Of a stretch of DNA of 49,697 nucleotides, positions 41,586-48,084 are shown piece after piece. Below the pieces are notes generated by a model. That model was given only the letters and a program-made list of their open reading frames with translations, made no database searches and was not told where the DNA came from. Each line of letters begins with the position of its first letter. The stretch's first letter is position 1. The DNA comes from Thermodesulfobacteriota bacterium. Its GTDB lineage: Bacteria; Desulfobacterota_D; UBA1144; Nemesobacterales; UBA2774. Location of the stretch: assembly GCA_021604765.1 (NCBI GenBank), contig BQJP01000003.1:78081-127777 (forward strand), read 5' to 3'. A program made the translations under genes and the position numbers.

Positions 41586-41825
41586 TTAAACAGGTTTTAC
41601 TTTGGATTTGAGAAGAATTTTAAGCCTATTTCTGATTTCTGGAGTAACAAATGGTTTGTTTTTAAGTTTACCGGTAATTTCAAGCATCCTTTTGTATGTG
41701 TTTACAAATGTCATGCATTCCGGACAGTCGCCCGTGTGTTTTTCTAGCTCTTTTAGAGTCTGAAGGTCCAATTCACAATCAATGTAACCCATAATATTTT
41801 CTACTACATCTTTGCACATAAACAT
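41586..41825 (-). CDS. Zinc-binding anti-sigma factor (zf-HC2/ZAS type)
   Basis: A 79-residue protein with the ZAS signature H30-x3-C34-x2-C37 (HTGDCPEC) and an N-terminal C4 that could complete a metal site. It also has Y14 in GYIDCELD, the usual YxDGEL-like element, with an extra Cys at 17. Such small cytoplasmic proteins hold an ECF sigma factor and in many cases release it on thiol oxidation. It has no membrane helix. It follows the sigma gene by 3 nt with a GGAGA site inside the sigma 3' end, so the pair is coupled. Confidence 0.88.
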   Translation of the reverse strand: MFMCKDVVENIMGYIDCELDLQTLKELEKHTGDCPECMTFVNTYKRMLEITGKLKNKPFVTPEIRNRLKILLKSKVKPV

Positions 41826-41828
41826 ATT

Positions 41829-42491
41829 TTATCTTCTCCATTCGTAGAAGTAGTCTGATAATTTATCACGTAAAAAAAGTCTCGCTCTGTGAAGTCTTGA
41901 TTTAACAGCAGGAATTGAAATTTCCAATATATTGCCAACCTCTTCATTTGAAAGACCTTCTATATCTCTTAGATGAAAAACTGTTCTATAAGACTCAGGC
42001 AATTCATTAATAGCTTTCTCAATTATTACTACAGCCTCTTTATTAAAAATAATTATGTCAGGTCTTGAGCTCCAGTCCTTATACATAATTCTCCCCATAA
42101 GCGTTCCTTTTTCGTCATATGGGGCATAGTTTTCAAGGCTAATGTTGTTTTCATGTTTTTTTTGCGAGCGTAAATACATGTAGCTCGTATTTACGGTTAC
42201 TCTGTAAAGCCAACTTGAGAATTTAGAGTCTCCTCTGAACGTATGTAATTTCTTTGTTAAAGTAAGAAATACTTCCTGAAAAACCTCTTCGGCATCACTT
42301 GTATTTCTTGTTATTCTTAACGCAAAACCATAAATTCTGTCTGAGTATCGGTTTACTATTTCTTCAAATGAGGACTCATCTCCCAATTGGGTAAATCTTC
42401 TTACGAGTTCATCGTCGGAGATGCCGGTTGTTTGCTCATTGTCATTGCTTACAATAACATTAATCAGCTTTTTAATAAACCCAATTTCCAT
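41829..42491 (-). CDS. ECF-subfamily RNA polymerase sigma factor
   Basis: A 220-residue group IV sigma factor. Region 2 has DELVRRFTQLGDESSFEEIV, YGFALRITRNTSDAEEVFQE and FSSWLYRVTVNTSYMYLRSQ. Region 4 has LPESYRTVFHLRDIEGLSNE and the helix-turn-helix GNILEISIPAVKSRLHRARL. There is an unusually long linker between regions 2 and 4 (about residues 115-150). Partner: the ZAS anti-sigma just downstream. Targets are unknown; ECF factors usually read their own promoter. A perfect 8-bp inverted repeat lies upstream at 42525-42553. The ribosome site is GAGAGGGGAA. Confidence 0.93.
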   Translation of the reverse strand: MEIGFIKKLINVIVSNDNEQTTGISDDELVRRFTQLGDESSFEEIVNRYSDRIYGFALRITRNTSDAEEVFQEVFLTLTKKLHTFRGDSKFSSWLYRVTVNTSYMYLRSQKKHENNISLENYAPYDEKGTLMGRIMYKDWSSRPDIIIFNKEAVVIIEKAINELPESYRTVFHLRDIEGLSNEEVGNILEISIPAVKSRLHRARLFLRDKLSDYFYEWRR

Positions 42492-42585: not shown

Positions 42586-43515
42586 CTAATTGGTAGAAGT
42601 TTCAGAATTGCAAATATATTTTTTTGAGAGTTGAAATACTCGGTCATGATTAGGAACGAAAACTCCGTCTTCATGGTTGCGCGATCTTATTAATACCTGG
42701 TCTGAACCGCAAGCAAATGTTAGTACTCGCGATTCTGATTCTTTAATCCCTATTAATTCTGGGCGGATAGATGATACATGTACAAAAATCGTGCCCTCAA
42801 ATTTATCTTTTTCGACTATATTATTCATTATAGAGTGAGGCAGGTGTAAATGTCCGGACAACCATAAATCAACTTGGTATTCTTTTAAAACATTGGTAAA
42901 CCTTTCAGAATTAATAACTTGACGGTCTCTAAAGGAAGAAAAAGGAATACCACTATCTTCAAGTGGGGCATGAGTTGTGACAACAATAATTTTGTCTTGG
43001 TTATTTATTACTAGATTCTTCCACCAAGCAAAAGTTTCATCCGATATCTCGGTTGGTTTTCCTCTCTCAGAATCGGACATGAAGATGAATAGGATATTAT
43101 CTTTTAGGATTGAATAATTAACCTCTTCTCTTAGTTTTTCTCTAAAGAGTTTTCCCTTATCAGCTATAAGGTCGTGGTTGCCTATAATCTCGTACCATTC
43201 TTCTATATATGAGGTGTTTCTGGTTTGTAAGTACCAATCAAAGGTTTCTTCAGTTGTTTTGTTTACTATGTCACCTGCAACGATTGCGAGATCAATATTT
43301 GGAACATTCTCGTTAATGTCTATTACGGCAAGCTCAAAAGCTTCCTCATGACTTTTCTTTGTCGGCTGAATATCTGCAAGTGCCCATACGCTTAAAGTTC
43401 TCTCAGGGTTAAACCAGTTAGCTTTTGAGTACTCATCGCCCGATGAATAACCTACATAGCAAGATGTCTGGATTAGAAATAATAGTAGTACGAGTGGTAT
43501 TAACTTTGTGGGCAT
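42586..43515 (-). CDS. Exported calcineurin-like metallophosphoesterase
   Basis: A 309-residue predicted exported protein with hydrophobic N-terminus LIPLVLLLFLIQTSC. C19 could be a lipid anchor, but the Gln at -3 is not a good lipobox. The phosphoesterase metal motifs are ADIQ (D48, with Gln at the usual His place), VAGDIVN, IGNHD, TTHAPLE and SGHLHLPH. The D-x-Q variant is known in some members of the family. It sits 4 nt after mtaB without a ribosome site, so it is probably translated by coupling. The substrate is unknown. It lies upstream of the sigma operon on the same strand (94 nt). Confidence 0.82.
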   Translation of the reverse strand: MPTKLIPLVLLLFLIQTSCYVGYSSGDEYSKANWFNPERTLSVWALADIQPTKKSHEEAFELAVIDINENVPNIDLAIVAGDIVNKTTEETFDWYLQTRNTSYIEEWYEIIGNHDLIADKGKLFREKLREEVNYSILKDNILFIFMSDSERGKPTEISDETFAWWKNLVINNQDKIIVVTTHAPLEDSGIPFSSFRDRQVINSERFTNVLKEYQVDLWLSGHLHLPHSIMNNIVEKDKFEGTIFVHVSSIRPELIGIKESESRVLTFACGSDQVLIRSRNHEDGVFVPNHDRVFQLSKKYICNSETSTN

Positions 43516-43519
43516 AAAT

Positions 43520-44818
43520 TTATGTATTACAAGTTTGTGGAATTCCTACCGCTTCTTCATTAACTACATCAGATATTTCAACAAAAACTTCATCGCCTAT
43601 GTTGAAGCCTTCAGTATTGAACTTGACTGGTATGTAGTTAGGAGTTGTGCCTTTAGAGCCTTTCTCAATTAAGACCGGGAATGTTCTTCCTATGAATTGT
43701 TTAAAGAAATCGGTTTTTTTCTTGCTTCCAAGCTCTCTTAGCCTTTTACTTCTATCTTTTATCTGTTCAGGATTTATCTGGTTATCCATGACAGCAGCCG
43801 GAGTCATCTTTCTCTTTGAATAAGGAAATACATGGAAATATGTAAGTTCTGATTCTTTTACTATTTCATATGTGTTTAAAAACTCTTCTTCAGTTTCACC
43901 TGGAAAACCAACCATTATATCTGAGCCTATTGCTGCATCAGGGATTCTTTGCCTTATTTTGTTTGTAAGGTCCAGAAATTTTTCAGGACCATATCTTCTT
44001 CTCATTGCCTTTAGTACTTTTGCATCGCCGCTTTGAAGAGCAATATGAAACTGGGGGCAGATTGTTTCAGAATCTGCAATAAAATCTATTAGATCTAATT
44101 CAGTATCCGCAGGGTCTAAGGAAGTAAGTCTAACTCGGTTTACAATCTTCTCATTCTCTATTTGGCGAAGTAATTCAAAAAAGTTAGTTCCGATATCTCT
44201 TCCGTAGCTTGCAATATGAACGCCGGTTAATACAATTTCTTTATATCCTGACTCTGCTAGCTTTTCCATTCGGGTTAGAATTTCGGGAATGTCTAAGCTT
44301 CTGGAACGTCCCCTTGCACGCGGGATGATGCAAAATGTGCAAGCATAGTTACACCCGTCCTGTACTTTTAGGAAAGCTCTTGTTCTTCCAGGGAATATTT
44401 CTATATCAGGAGATTCAAAGCCTTTTTTCTTCTCTTTGAAAATATCAGAAATAAATACCTTAGGTTCTTCTTGGCGTTTACCTTCTCTTATAATTTTTAA
44501 GAGTGAAGAAAACTTGTGTGAATTCCCTATTACGTAATCTACTCCTTGAACCTCTTTCAGTTCTTCTGAGGAAACCTGGGCGTAACAGCCTGTTACGACT
44601 ACTAGTCCATCGGGGTTAGCTCTTTTGGCACGGTTTATATAGTTTCTAGCCTCAGCGTCAGCTCTATGGGTAACAGTGCAAGTATCTATAACATATACAT
44701 CGGCTTTATCTGAAAACGGAACCTTTTTATACTTACTCTTAGGGAGTTGATTAAGTATGACTGCTGTATCGTACTGATTTACCTTACAGCCTAATGTGAC
44801 AATAGAAATACTCTTCAT
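43520..44818 (-). CDS. mtaB: tRNA t6A37 methylthiotransferase (MiaB family)
   Basis: A radical-SAM enzyme that adds a methylthio group to N6-threonylcarbamoyladenosine 37 of ANN-reading tRNAs. It has 432 residues from the chosen start. The N-terminal methylthiotransferase domain has TLGCKVNQYD, VIDTCTVTHRA and VTGCYAQ, whose Cys residues bind the second [4Fe-4S] cluster. The radical-SAM motif is CNYACTFCIIPRARG. A C-terminal TRAM-like segment follows. The KVNQYD and TVTHRAD wording fits MtaB better than MiaB or RimO. The start at 44818 is preferred to 44839 because AGGGT sits just upstream, and it makes a one-base TAATG overlap with mnmA. Confidence 0.93.
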   Translation of the reverse strand: MKSISIVTLGCKVNQYDTAVILNQLPKSKYKKVPFSDKADVYVIDTCTVTHRADAEARNYINRAKRANPDGLVVVTGCYAQVSSEELKEVQGVDYVIGNSHKFSSLLKIIREGKRQEEPKVFISDIFKEKKKGFESPDIEIFPGRTRAFLKVQDGCNYACTFCIIPRARGRSRSLDIPEILTRMEKLAESGYKEIVLTGVHIASYGRDIGTNFFELLRQIENEKIVNRVRLTSLDPADTELDLIDFIADSETICPQFHIALQSGDAKVLKAMRRRYGPEKFLDLTNKIRQRIPDAAIGSDIMVGFPGETEEEFLNTYEIVKESELTYFHVFPYSKRKMTPAAVMDNQINPEQIKDRSKRLRELGSKKKTDFFKQFIGRTFPVLIEKGSKGTTPNYIPVKFNTEGFNIGDEVFVEISDVVNEEAVGIPQTCNT

Positions 44819-45906
44819 TATAAGACCCTGTTTATCCAACCGCCGCCGAGAACTTCTTTATTTTTATACAAAACAACAGCTTGTCCAGGTGTTATAGCGC
44901 GCTGGGGATTTATGAATTCTACGTCTGCTTCGTTATTTGGGTTTATTCTGACAACAGCATCATCTTCGTAGTGTCTGTTTCTTACTTTAGCCTTAACCAA
45001 AAGCTCTCCGTCAGCATATAAATCATTAATATCTATTTTTGTCCTATCCACCCATGAGAGGTTTTCTGCAATTAGTTTAGAACTGTAAATTTTGTCCTCT
45101 TCTCCAACAACAATACGGTTTTCTTTGGAATCTATACCTACAACATACATAGGTTTTCCTGTAGCTATACCAAGCCCTCTTCTCTGTCCAACAGTGAAGT
45201 AGTATATACCTTTATGTTTGCCCAAAACTTCCCCTTCGGTATTCACAATGTTTCCTTCTTTTTCTGGAAATGCATTATTGTTGACTAAATAATCCCTATA
45301 GTTGTCAGAGGGTACAAAACAAACTCCGGTGCTATCGGGTTTATCTGCTAATTTCAAATTATATCCTCGGGCAAGATCTCTAACTTCATCTTTATTTAAT
45401 GAACCTAGAGGGAACATTAGTTTAGATAACTCTTTTTGTTTTAATGTGTATAAAAAGTAGGTTTGGTCTTTATTCTCGTCATCCGCTTTGCTTAATTTAT
45501 AGGTGCCGTTATTGTTTTCTATTTTTGCATAATGGCCGGTTGCTAAATAATCAGCTCCAAGCTCAAGCGCACGTTTTAAAAGCAGGTCAAACTTCACATA
45601 CTGATTGCACAGAACACATGGAATAGGAGTCTTGCCTGATTCATATTTCTCTACATAATCTTTCAAGACGTATTCTTTGAACGAGTCTATAAAGTTCACA
45701 ACATAATGCGGTATGTCAAGCTCCTGTGCTACTCTTCTAGCATCTATTACATGATCCAATGAGCAGCATCCTCCCTCGGCATCTTTGTAATCCAAGAGCT
45801 GCATGGTTATGCCAATCACCTCATGGCCTTGTTCTTTAAGGAGCGCCGCTACTGTGGTGCTGTCTACTCCTCCGCTCATTGCAACAACTATTCTTTTCCT
45901 ATTCAT
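44818..45906 (-). CDS. mnmA: tRNA-specific 2-thiouridylase
   Basis: Makes 2-thiouridine at position 34 of Lys, Glu and Gln tRNAs. It has 362 residues. The ATP-pyrophosphatase P-loop is AMSGGVDSTTVAALL. The catalytic cysteines are in NQYVKFD's leader PIPCVLC and in STGVCFVPS, and the tRNA-contact region is GHYAKIE. The C-terminal beta-barrel includes YYFTVGQRRGLGI and ITPGQAVVLY. It is the first gene of a unit with mtaB and the phosphoesterase, pairing two anticodon-loop thiolation enzymes. No good ribosome site is seen before the ATG. Confidence 0.96.
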   Translation of the reverse strand: MNRKRIVVAMSGGVDSTTVAALLKEQGHEVIGITMQLLDYKDAEGGCCSLDHVIDARRVAQELDIPHYVVNFIDSFKEYVLKDYVEKYESGKTPIPCVLCNQYVKFDLLLKRALELGADYLATGHYAKIENNNGTYKLSKADDENKDQTYFLYTLKQKELSKLMFPLGSLNKDEVRDLARGYNLKLADKPDSTGVCFVPSDNYRDYLVNNNAFPEKEGNIVNTEGEVLGKHKGIYYFTVGQRRGLGIATGKPMYVVGIDSKENRIVVGEEDKIYSSKLIAENLSWVDRTKIDINDLYADGELLVKAKVRNRHYEDDAVVRINPNNEADVEFINPQRAITPGQAVVLYKNKEVLGGGWINRVL

Positions 45907-46003: not shown

Positions 46004-47251
46004 TTAAACTAGGCCCTCTTCTACACCTACAATTGAGTAGTAGGATTCTCCACCGAGAGTGAGCTCTCTAGCTTCTACATATTCGCTTACTGATAAATAC
46101 ATGTCTGAGCTGACTATTACTCTCCATATCGGAGCTAAATCGCAAATACCTCTGGCAGAGTCAGTTACTGCTTTTATGCCCTGGGGAACTCCATTGTCCC
46201 CATAAACATTCAATGTCTTGGAACCAATTCCTATTTTGCCGCTAATGGCGACCTTACCTTCTAGTTTTCTTTCTCTTGTTATGGTTGCTAAGTGCTGAAG
46301 GACTTCGACCGCAGAACAAATTGCTCTTAATTCTGGGTTTGTTTGTTCTTCAGGGGCATTGAAAAATGCAACAATTTCGTCTTTCATAAGAGCTTCAATT
46401 ACACCACCATAATTTGAAATTATTGAAGATGCAGATTTTCTGTAATCAGCCAGGAATGCATTAAATTCGGACGAATCAAGAGTTGAGCTAAGGTCTTGGA
46501 AGTCAGCTATCTTAGCCACGATAACTGTGACTCTTCTATTTTTGGTTTCTTCTTCCTCTTCCTCCTCTTCATTCTCGTCAGCCTCAATGAGAGTAGGTTG
46601 AAAAACAGGTTCTTCAGGTGGTTCTACGTCAGCCTTTCTTTTGAGTAAATCTAACATTTGATTATAGGTTTCAAATGCCCTTATCATTGTTACATCATCC
46701 CCTGCTTCACTTGAATCAAGCTTGGTTGCTAAATCACCTCTTGATACTCTTTTCATTCCTGCTATAAGCTTTTCAATAGTGTCTGATTTGCCGTTAGAGA
46801 GAAATGATAGCAAAAAGAGAACTATAATAGAGACAACAAGCCCTATTAAACCGCTCCATATTGCTGTAGATATAGAAAGACTCTTAAAGTCTGTTGCGGC
46901 CAGTCCAATTAATATAGTTGAGTCCTCAGATGTCGAGATCGGGAGTATTTCAAGGCTCTCCCCGTCTTCATTACCGAGACTTTCTTGTAACACACCTTCA
47001 GAATCTACAAGTTTAATAAAATAAATATCTTGTCTTGAATTTAATATGTTTTCAGCAGTTTCTTGAAAGCCAGTATTTGAATTACTAAAGAGTTTAATAA
47101 GATCTTGAGTCTTTTGTTCAGTAACAGTAGAGTTGAAGTAATAAGAGCTGAATAATGAAATTGCTACAGATAATATGACGAAAACAGCAACTAAAAGTAT
47201 AGATATTCCAGTTCCGGGCTTAGTCATTTTGGTACCTGGTCCCATACTCAT
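46004..47251 (-). CDS. Membrane HAMP protein with a degenerate class III nucleotidyl-cyclase domain
   Basis: A 415-residue protein. Two membrane helices (residues about 15-38 and 130-151) enclose an exported sensor region of about 90 residues. A HAMP-like segment (155-205), an acidic linker with a run of eight Glu (229-235 region) and a C-terminal cyclase-homology domain (241-415) follow. In VTVIVAKIADF the first metal-binding Asp is replaced by K247. In NYGGVIEALMKDEIVAFFNAP the second Asp (D291) is kept, but the Gly before it is K290. Catalysis is doubtful, so the domain may act as a sensor-driven regulator. The start at 47251 has GGAGC; 47245 is possible. It is a single gene between mnmA and rpmA. 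Confidence 0.8.
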   Translation of the reverse strand: MSMGPGTKMTKPGTGISILLVAVFVILSVAISLFSSYYFNSTVTEQKTQDLIKLFSNSNTGFQETAENILNSRQDIYFIKLVDSEGVLQESLGNEDGESLEILPISTSEDSTILIGLAATDFKSLSISTAIWSGLIGLVVSIIVLFLLSFLSNGKSDTIEKLIAGMKRVSRGDLATKLDSSEAGDDVTMIRAFETYNQMLDLLKRKADVEPPEEPVFQPTLIEADENEEEEEEEETKNRRVTVIVAKIADFQDLSSTLDSSEFNAFLADYRKSASSIISNYGGVIEALMKDEIVAFFNAPEEQTNPELRAICSAVEVLQHLATITRERKLEGKVAISGKIGIGSKTLNVYGDNGVPQGIKAVTDSARGICDLAPIWRVIVSSDMYLSVSEYVEARELTLGGESYYSIVGVEEGLV

Positions 47252-47495
47252 CGCGCTCCGACTTTATAGTTAGATTGATGAAATTTTGAGTTGGCATAAT
47301 CAAACTTCATAATTTCTATAATACAAATTTAAAAAGAACTAGTAAAGAAGAATTATATAAAAGCCTGTATTTGATATTTAAGAACCCTACCTGCACAAAA
47401 ATTATAACAAATTATTTATTAAAAATATCTGCTAAAGAATTGCCGGTTAAGTCCATTTGAGTCGGTATAGCAAAACTCACCTACTCTTCAAAAGT

Positions 47496-47756
47496 CTAAT
47501 TTGTTAAGGGCTGTATGTTTATTTTAGTTTTGTTGTTTGCAAACTTCTGAAATTCAACTGTGCCATCTATTAGTGCAAATAAGGTATGATCCCTACCCAT
47601 CCCAACGTTATTTCCTGGATGGAACGTTGTGCCCCTTTGTCTGGCAAGTATATTTCCAGCAATTACTCTTTCGCCACCAAATTTTTTAACACCAAGCCTT
47701 TTTCCTGCTGAATCTCTTCCGTTTCTACTACTTCCGCCGCCTTTTTTTGTTGACAA
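47496..47756 (-). CDS. rpmA: 50S ribosomal protein L27
   Basis: An 86-residue ribosomal protein whose N-terminus reaches the peptidyl-transferase centre. It begins [20 protein letters not shown] and has [10 protein letters not shown] and GRDHTLFAL, all typical. There is no N-terminal cleavable extension of the Firmicutes type. The start codon is TTG at 47756, with AGGGGG upstream. It follows rplU by 13 nt. The GTPase gene obgE, often the next gene, is absent here. Confidence 0.97.
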
Positions 47757-47769
47757 TTTTATATACCCC

Positions 47770-48084
47770 CTAATTCACAATATCAGTTATTTCTACTGTT
47801 GTGTAACGTTGGCGATGACCGTTTTTATTGCGGTAATCTTTTCTTCTCTTGAATTTAAAAACTATTATTTTCTTTCCTTTTTTTTCTTGAACTATCTTGG
47901 CTTTAACTACTGCTTTTTCAACAACGGGTGAACCAATTTGAACTTCCCCTTTGTCGTTAGAAACCATAAGCACTTCATTAAATTCAATCGCATCCCCCGG
48001 ATTACCTGCCAGAAGTTCGACATCTAATATGTCTCCTGGGTTAACGGTATACTGCTTCCCGCCTGTTTTGATAACTGCTTGCAT
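47770..48084 (-). CDS. rplU: 50S ribosomal protein L21
   Basis: A 104-residue ribosomal protein of the large subunit. It starts [18 protein letters not shown] and has the family core [19 protein letters not shown] and a basic C-terminus [17 protein letters not shown]. The ribosome site CGGAGGA is strong. It is the first gene of the rplU-rpmA operon, with a predicted promoter at 48142-48171. Confidence 0.97.

Follow-up and report, generated by a model that had tools for sequence, protein, structure and literature searches.

A membrane-anchored class III cyclase-fold protein with a degenerate active site in Dadabacteria

The locus and the layout of its protein

The window (the whole stretch of DNA that was analysed, 49,697 nucleotides) carries on its minus strand a gene for a 415-aa membrane protein, here called the pseudo-cyclase, which lies among genes of the translation machinery (Table 1). 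The start codon is uncertain (M1, M3 or M9), and near relatives begin around M9. Pfam and NCBIfam searches put no name on the protein, and no Rfam RNA element was found in the window at gathering thresholds.

Table 1. Features of the pseudo-cyclase gene and its surroundings (window coordinates; residue numbers refer to the 415-aa protein).
Feature	Position	Strand	Basis
rplU (ribosomal protein L21), located upstream and conserved in relatives	47770..48084	-	profile match and locus comparison
rpmA (ribosomal protein L27), located upstream and conserved in relatives	47496..47756	-	profile match and locus comparison
Putative own promoter, TTTACTAGT-N13-GTATTAT	47318..47346	-	conserved in spacers of several relatives
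Pseudo-cyclase membrane sensor gene	46004..47251, stop codon included	-	415-aa open reading frame
First transmembrane helix, about residues 14-37	47141..47212	-	sequence; helix 14-57 in the AlphaFold2 model
Small extracytoplasmic domain, about residues 40-122	46886..47134	-	helices, then four strands; borderline PAS/Cache-like
Second transmembrane helix, about residues 123-150	46802..46885	-	sequence and AlphaFold2 model
HAMP-like segment, residues 155-208	46628..46789	-	AlphaFold2 model; Pfam HAMP in 7/24 members
FQPT motif in disordered linker, residues 217-220	46592..46603	-	F217/P219 kept; linker pLDDT <50
Acidic linker, residues 223-235, including Glu run E228-E235	46547..46585	-	sequence
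Class III cyclase-fold domain, catalytically degenerate, residues 236-415	46007..46546	-	alignments, model and fold comparison
K247 codon at first metal-binding Asp	46511-46513	-	AAG (Lys), read directly
K290-D291-E292 codons, former Gly-Asp pair	46376..46384	-	D291 Asp/Glu in family, E292 invariant
mnmA (tRNA 2-thiouridine synthase), located downstream in the window's family	44818..45906	-	locus comparison

From its N-terminus, the protein consists of a transmembrane helix, a small extracytoplasmic domain, a second transmembrane helix, a HAMP-like segment, an acidic linker predicted to be disordered, and a domain with the class III cyclase fold. An AlphaFold2 model of the single chain, based on 24 sequences, has a mean pLDDT of 76.6 and falls below 50 at residues 1-12 and 212-235. 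The exported sensor loop proposed in an earlier note on this DNA is present in the model as strands at residues 76-118 between helices 14-57 and 123-151, and residues F62, L81, G86, S91, G93 and G116 are invariant in the family alignment. Modelled alone (pLDDT 78.2), this extracytoplasmic part resembles PAS/Cache domains (YkuI, KinD, WalK) at Z 6.6-8.3, where chance arrangements turn up as well; the best matches, 2w27_B (Z 8.3) and 4jgo_B, the KinD sensor (Z 8.0), lie near that range. Roadblock-type folds also rank high for this domain in Foldseek.

The HAMP segment suggested by the earlier note appears in the model as a HAMP-like helix pair (residues 155-170 and 187-208), and the Pfam HAMP model (PF00672, E<=0.01) matches 7 of the 24 family members scanned but not the window's own protein. 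Likewise, the run of glutamates noticed before the cyclase domain is real (E228-E235), but a pure run is limited to the window's close relatives; other relatives have different, partly longer and mostly acidic linkers. This HAMP-cyclase linker is variable in length and sequence and is predicted to be disordered. Within it, residue 217 is Phe in 22 and Tyr in 2 of 24 members and P219 is kept in 23/24; docking sites are typically short motifs of this sort, retained within disordered sequence, and we suggest such a role for F-x-P here.

A cyclase fold that has lost most of its catalytic residues

The cyclase domain is modelled with a pLDDT of about 81-94 over most of residues 241-410, with a dip to 61 around residues 351-360. 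It superposes on CyaB of P. aeruginosa (3r5g_A) with a VIA-align Z of 23.0 (179 residues, 3.2 A) and on Cya2 of Synechocystis (2w01) with a Z of 22.7 (182 residues, 3.7 A), at about 20% identity to both. Together with a best Foldseek E of 3.2e-12, this result identifies a class III cyclase fold and bears out the earlier impression, drawn from the letters, that the fold pattern is intact. The relationship can also be detected at sequence level: phmmer matches residues 238-347 to Cya2 at 4.5e-8 and to CyaB at 7.7e-7, and a profile built from 17 relatives reaches CyaB at E 5.7e-13 and Cya2 at E 2.8e-12 over the domain. The Pfam Guanylate_cyc model (PF00211) has no match in the window's genome, pseudo-cyclase included, and none of its 70 places in 57 Dadabacteria genomes is a member of the pseudo-cyclase family. 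In the alignment, the strand 4-5 loop and the C-terminal hairpin are shorter than those of canonical cyclases.

According to the earlier note, K247 stands in for the first catalytic Asp and K290 for the Gly preceding the second one. Alignment with CyaB and Cya2 bears out both placements, with K290-D291 falling on the Gly-Asp pair, and 14 canonical cyclases taken from related genomes align in the same way (codon 290 is AAA, Lys, at 46382-46384; codon 291 is GAC, Asp, at 46379-46381). K290 is nevertheless not a conserved Lys, its position being R in 9, K in 8 and Q in 7 of 24 members. The note had also described the domain as having lost its first metal ligand. K247 does stand in that place, but far more of the active site has gone than this single ligand. 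In the 32 family rows with catalytic columns, the first Asp is Lys in 32/32, so that no row has both metal-binding Asp residues; the substrate Lys is Ala in 31 and Thr in 1; the Gly before the second Asp is R, K or Q in 32/32; the catalytic Asn is found in 0/32, and the catalytic Arg and the substrate-specifying Asp in 3/32 each. The second Asp (D291) is mostly kept (Asp 30, Glu 2; Asp in 23/24 of a second row set), and K247, E292 and K339 are invariant in 24/24 rows. In class III cyclases, the Lys specifies the substrate and the Asn and Arg serve the transition state. Judged by these roles, class III-type catalysis can probably be taken as lost.

A search of relatives for the same substitution found Lys at the first Asp position in 34/34 assemblies read, namely the window's copy with 29 relatives (30 rows), L094, L053/L093 (one assembly), L033 and L046, and none of them keeps both Asp residues. 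Because all 34 assemblies agree, the substitution is not a sequencing error. The family rows aligned with canonical cyclases were cut by a Lys-containing pattern, which none failed; the 30-row alignment and the one that gave the invariant residues of the sensor part did not use this pattern. Among the 34 genomes with a member in the 57-genome set, G042 was not read at K247 and G025 holds the N-terminal part only.

Other cyclase domains keep what the family has lost. The 14 canonical comparators retain the first Asp (14), the Gly-Asp (14), the Asn (14) and, in 13 cases, the Arg; 20 further domains, mainly weaker matches, retain the first Asp in 19/19 where it is visible and the second in 20/20. 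Altogether the first Asp is kept in 33/33 other domains with the position visible, the 34th being truncated there (L138), and no intermediate between canonical and Lys-type sites occurs among these 34. The comparators comprise 32 domains from the phylum, which has 70 PF00211 places, and 2 from outside; L059 (one of 15 fetched loci) and L135 (one of 20 later regions, without the domain) were left out.

Distribution, selection and genomic position

Members of the family were found in 34 of 57 Dadabacteria genomes, one copy each. Across these genomes the weakest member covering the cyclase domain scores 395.7 bits, against 72.6 bits for the best canonical cyclase. The gene is present in most of one Dadabacteria order, with 9 of its 43 genomes lacking a member; families f8 (14 genomes) and f5 (2 genomes) have none. 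Seven of the order genomes without a member (G001, G008, G012, G013, G014, G015 and G029) also have no rplU match, which fits an assembly gap at this place, and G001 retains a 32-aa end fragment of the gene. A scan of 84,980 species with a degenerate sequence pattern returned 23 loci, all from Dadabacteria except L033, in a MAG titled Rhodospirillales. This 3323-bp contig (JAJFIE010000103.1) holds a copy of Dadabacteria type with 85% identity and, behind it, mnmA-mtaB as in the window's family. Its presence in that MAG is probably a binning error.

In a tree from which the domain rows L033 and L053 were left out, the family forms one clade with branch support 100/100, set off by long branches (1.19 and 1.31); because of these branches, the parent cyclase cannot be named. 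In four close pairs with unsaturated dS, dN/dS is 0.116, 0.105, 0.241 and 0.197; several pairs with the window's copy were saturated and left unused. The gene is thus under purifying selection rather than decaying. Across four pairs with the window's copy, the extracytoplasmic part has the highest dN of the protein (0.205-0.466) and the cyclase part the lowest (0.041-0.065), that is, a fast-evolving sensor is joined to a constrained output domain. Taken together, a fold that is kept, catalytic residues lost across the whole clade and maintenance by selection mark this protein as a probable pseudoenzyme of class III origin.

A canonical cyclase is often absent from the same genome. PF00211 has no match in 23 of the 34 carrier genomes, including the window's, and a match in 11; a canonical partner is therefore not needed in those 23. 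As a separate observation, the window's genome, without a PF00211 cyclase, contains five cNMP-binding matches (contigs C43, C57, C40 and C3 of G000).

The gene also keeps its genomic position. In 21/23 loci, rplU-rpmA lies directly upstream on the same strand, and the remaining two loci begin at a contig edge inside the gene; in L032, rpmA alone is upstream, at the contig edge. Downstream, the window's family has mnmA-mtaB, and in other lineages the gene stands between rpmA and alaS, mostly with rlmN between (9 of 23 loci inspected by eye; Pfam confirms rlmN and alaS in L041 and alaS in L050). The genomes of f5 (2/2) and f8 (5/14 looked at) have, by eye, the order rplU-rpmA-alaS without the pseudo-cyclase gene, which therefore probably entered an old row of translation genes a single time. 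In L047 (9817-12234, family f6), two transposase-like open reading frames were seen by eye between the pseudo-cyclase and alaS.

The spacers between rpmA and the gene measure 88-413 nt and in several relatives contain a putative promoter. Its block is shared by the six spacers belonging to the window's family and, at one mismatch, by L038 and L042. In all, 8 of 22 spacers reach 14/16 positions, L045 reaches 13/16 and the other 13 reach 9-11/16, and since the pattern was drawn from six of the eight, only L038 and L042 are independent. We considered this promoter as the mark of a regulon and rejected the idea: there is one exact occurrence in the genome, and its 7 further matches, all with two mismatches, are no more than the 11 of the backward-read control. 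With one exact occurrence, the putative promoter is a trait of this gene. An explanation through the rplU-rpmA operon is weakened by the spacers and by the putative promoter.

Two further genes of the window lie on the same strand. At 42586-43515 is a calcineurin-like phosphoesterase (PF00149) with an apparent lipoprotein signal, which matches a cAMP phosphodiesterase model weakly (29.7 bits, cut-off 225). At 41586-42491 is an ECF-type sigma factor (TIGR02937), followed by a 79-aa cysteine-containing open reading frame that by eye resembles an anti-sigma factor; the sigma gene follows mnmA, mtaB and the phosphoesterase in L031, L034 and L037 too.

A proposed signalling role and comparison with known systems

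The earlier note read the protein as a signalling protein with a cyclase part turned to binding, and this reading is supported by Lys in 34/34 assemblies, by the wider loss of residues and by the constraint on the gene, as well as by the 23 carrier genomes that offer no PF00211 cyclase to pair with. The cyclase part may bind a ligand or a partner. We think it probable, with some reserve, that the protein is a single-copy transmembrane pseudoenzyme in which a sensor and a HAMP segment control a non-cyclising, cyclase-fold output that takes up or lets go of a partner. A cue would be sensed by the extracytoplasmic domain, which is probably PAS/Cache-like, and the two transmembrane helices and the HAMP segment would relay it to the cyclase-fold domain. 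There, the invariant K247 probably replaces the charge of the metal by forming a salt bridge with D291/E292; a Lys in place of Asp beside these two residues is a plausible substitute. The signal would most likely be a change in shape or pairing of the domains, so that a dimer exposes or hides a binding surface, and the F-x-P motif in the flexible linker may help a cytoplasmic partner to bind or to be released. A partner-binding switch would agree with the constraint on the output domain, with the HAMP segment and with the docking-like motif.

Of the alternatives, a small-molecule receptor survives best, though we consider it unlikely. Here the degenerate domain would act as a cytoplasmic input, with K247 and nearby charges making direct, metal-free contact to an anionic ligand such as a nucleotide, a ppGpp-like molecule or another compound. 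The invariance of K247, E292 and K339 and the retention of D291 agree with a ligand site, and with five PF00027 cNMP-binding matches in its own genome, nucleotide signalling may not be foreign to this organism. Against this, the substrate Lys and the Asn are lost, the Arg is almost always missing and the loop after strand 4 is short, which makes canonical nucleotide binding unlikely.

The retention of D291 (30/32) and E292 (24/24) may also point to an unusual site for an ion or a ligand, or even to a different chemistry. That the protein is still a cyclase or a related transferase with a changed, metal-poor mechanism would agree with the intact fold, with D291 being kept in most rows and with the strict constraint on K247, but nearly every known class III catalytic residue and the loop segments have been lost, and we regard this as very improbable. 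Scarcely any better, and marginally worse in our judgement, is the idea that the protein pairs with another subunit in a heterodimeric class III cyclase and supplies what the active site of that subunit lacks. In its favour, most members retain the second Asp, and PMC8815786 describes class III heterodimers whose subunits miss some catalytic residues; yet here residues of both halves are missing (first Asp, substrate Lys, Asn, and Arg in 29/32), and PF00211 finds no cyclase in 23 of the 34 carrier genomes, the window's among them. That the gene is a decaying pseudogene, or that sequencing or assembly went wrong, could be argued from the fragmented MAG (173 contigs) and the genomes without the gene; this has a negligible chance and is refuted by the relatives, given K247 in 34/34 assemblies, dN/dS of 0.10-0.24, the conserved position and the fact that 7 of the 9 order genomes without a member also lack an rplU match, the other two being the f5 pair.

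Beyond the partner-binding switch, we raise, as a speculation with a low chance of being right, a lineage-specific class of transmembrane receptors whose class III cyclase domain became, in a single event, a protein-binding switch without metal, with Lys standing where the metal was, and which couple the translation machinery to a cue from outside the cytoplasm. Translation genes do surround the locus (rplU-rpmA upstream, rlmN-alaS or mnmA-mtaB downstream), and the link to translation, drawn from gene order alone, is the weakest step. If the switch operates as proposed, replacing K247 should abolish function without touching catalysis. Often no other class III fold is recognised in the genome of a pseudo-cyclase, which the current Pfam model misses. 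In the literature searched, which covers few subscription papers and therefore says little, no degenerate class III cyclase receptor was recognised in Dadabacteria or other bacteria, the term 'pseudocyclase' is absent, and no precedent was found for a class III pseudo-cyclase receptor present in single copy throughout a clade and bearing Lys in the metal site.

Among known cyclases, CyaB and Cya2 share the fold with the pseudo-cyclase. In both, the first metal Asp and the Gly-Asp pair are present, whereas the pseudo-cyclase has Lys at the first of these positions, Ala for the substrate Lys, no Asn and almost never the Arg. The family profile also matches canonical HAMP-linked cyclases of the same order (for example L054-L057, 680-690 aa), starting in the HAMP region (from profile positions 75-123 on) and extending into the cyclase domain; these proteins keep D, G-D, N and R, are scored by PF00211 and fall outside the Lys clade.

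LapD-type receptors combine a membrane sensor, a HAMP segment, a degenerate nucleotide-enzyme domain and a protein-interaction output. The likeness of the pseudo-cyclase to them is by analogy only, as the domain family is different, and Pfam finds no GGDEF or EAL match at E<=0.01 in 24 family members. Degenerate GGDEF-EAL receptors are a known kind (PMC3032553 and PMC3032545). Such proteins have taught that an inactive second-messenger enzyme may act as a receptor; a clade-wide receptor made from a dead class III cyclase would be the parallel case for the enzymes of cAMP and cGMP. Incomplete class III domains are likewise known in principle, as heterodimers: in the mammalian transmembrane adenylyl cyclases, the C1 and C2 domains each lack part of the active site (PMC8815786). 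There the partner domain completes the site, whereas the pseudo-cyclase lacks residues of both halves.
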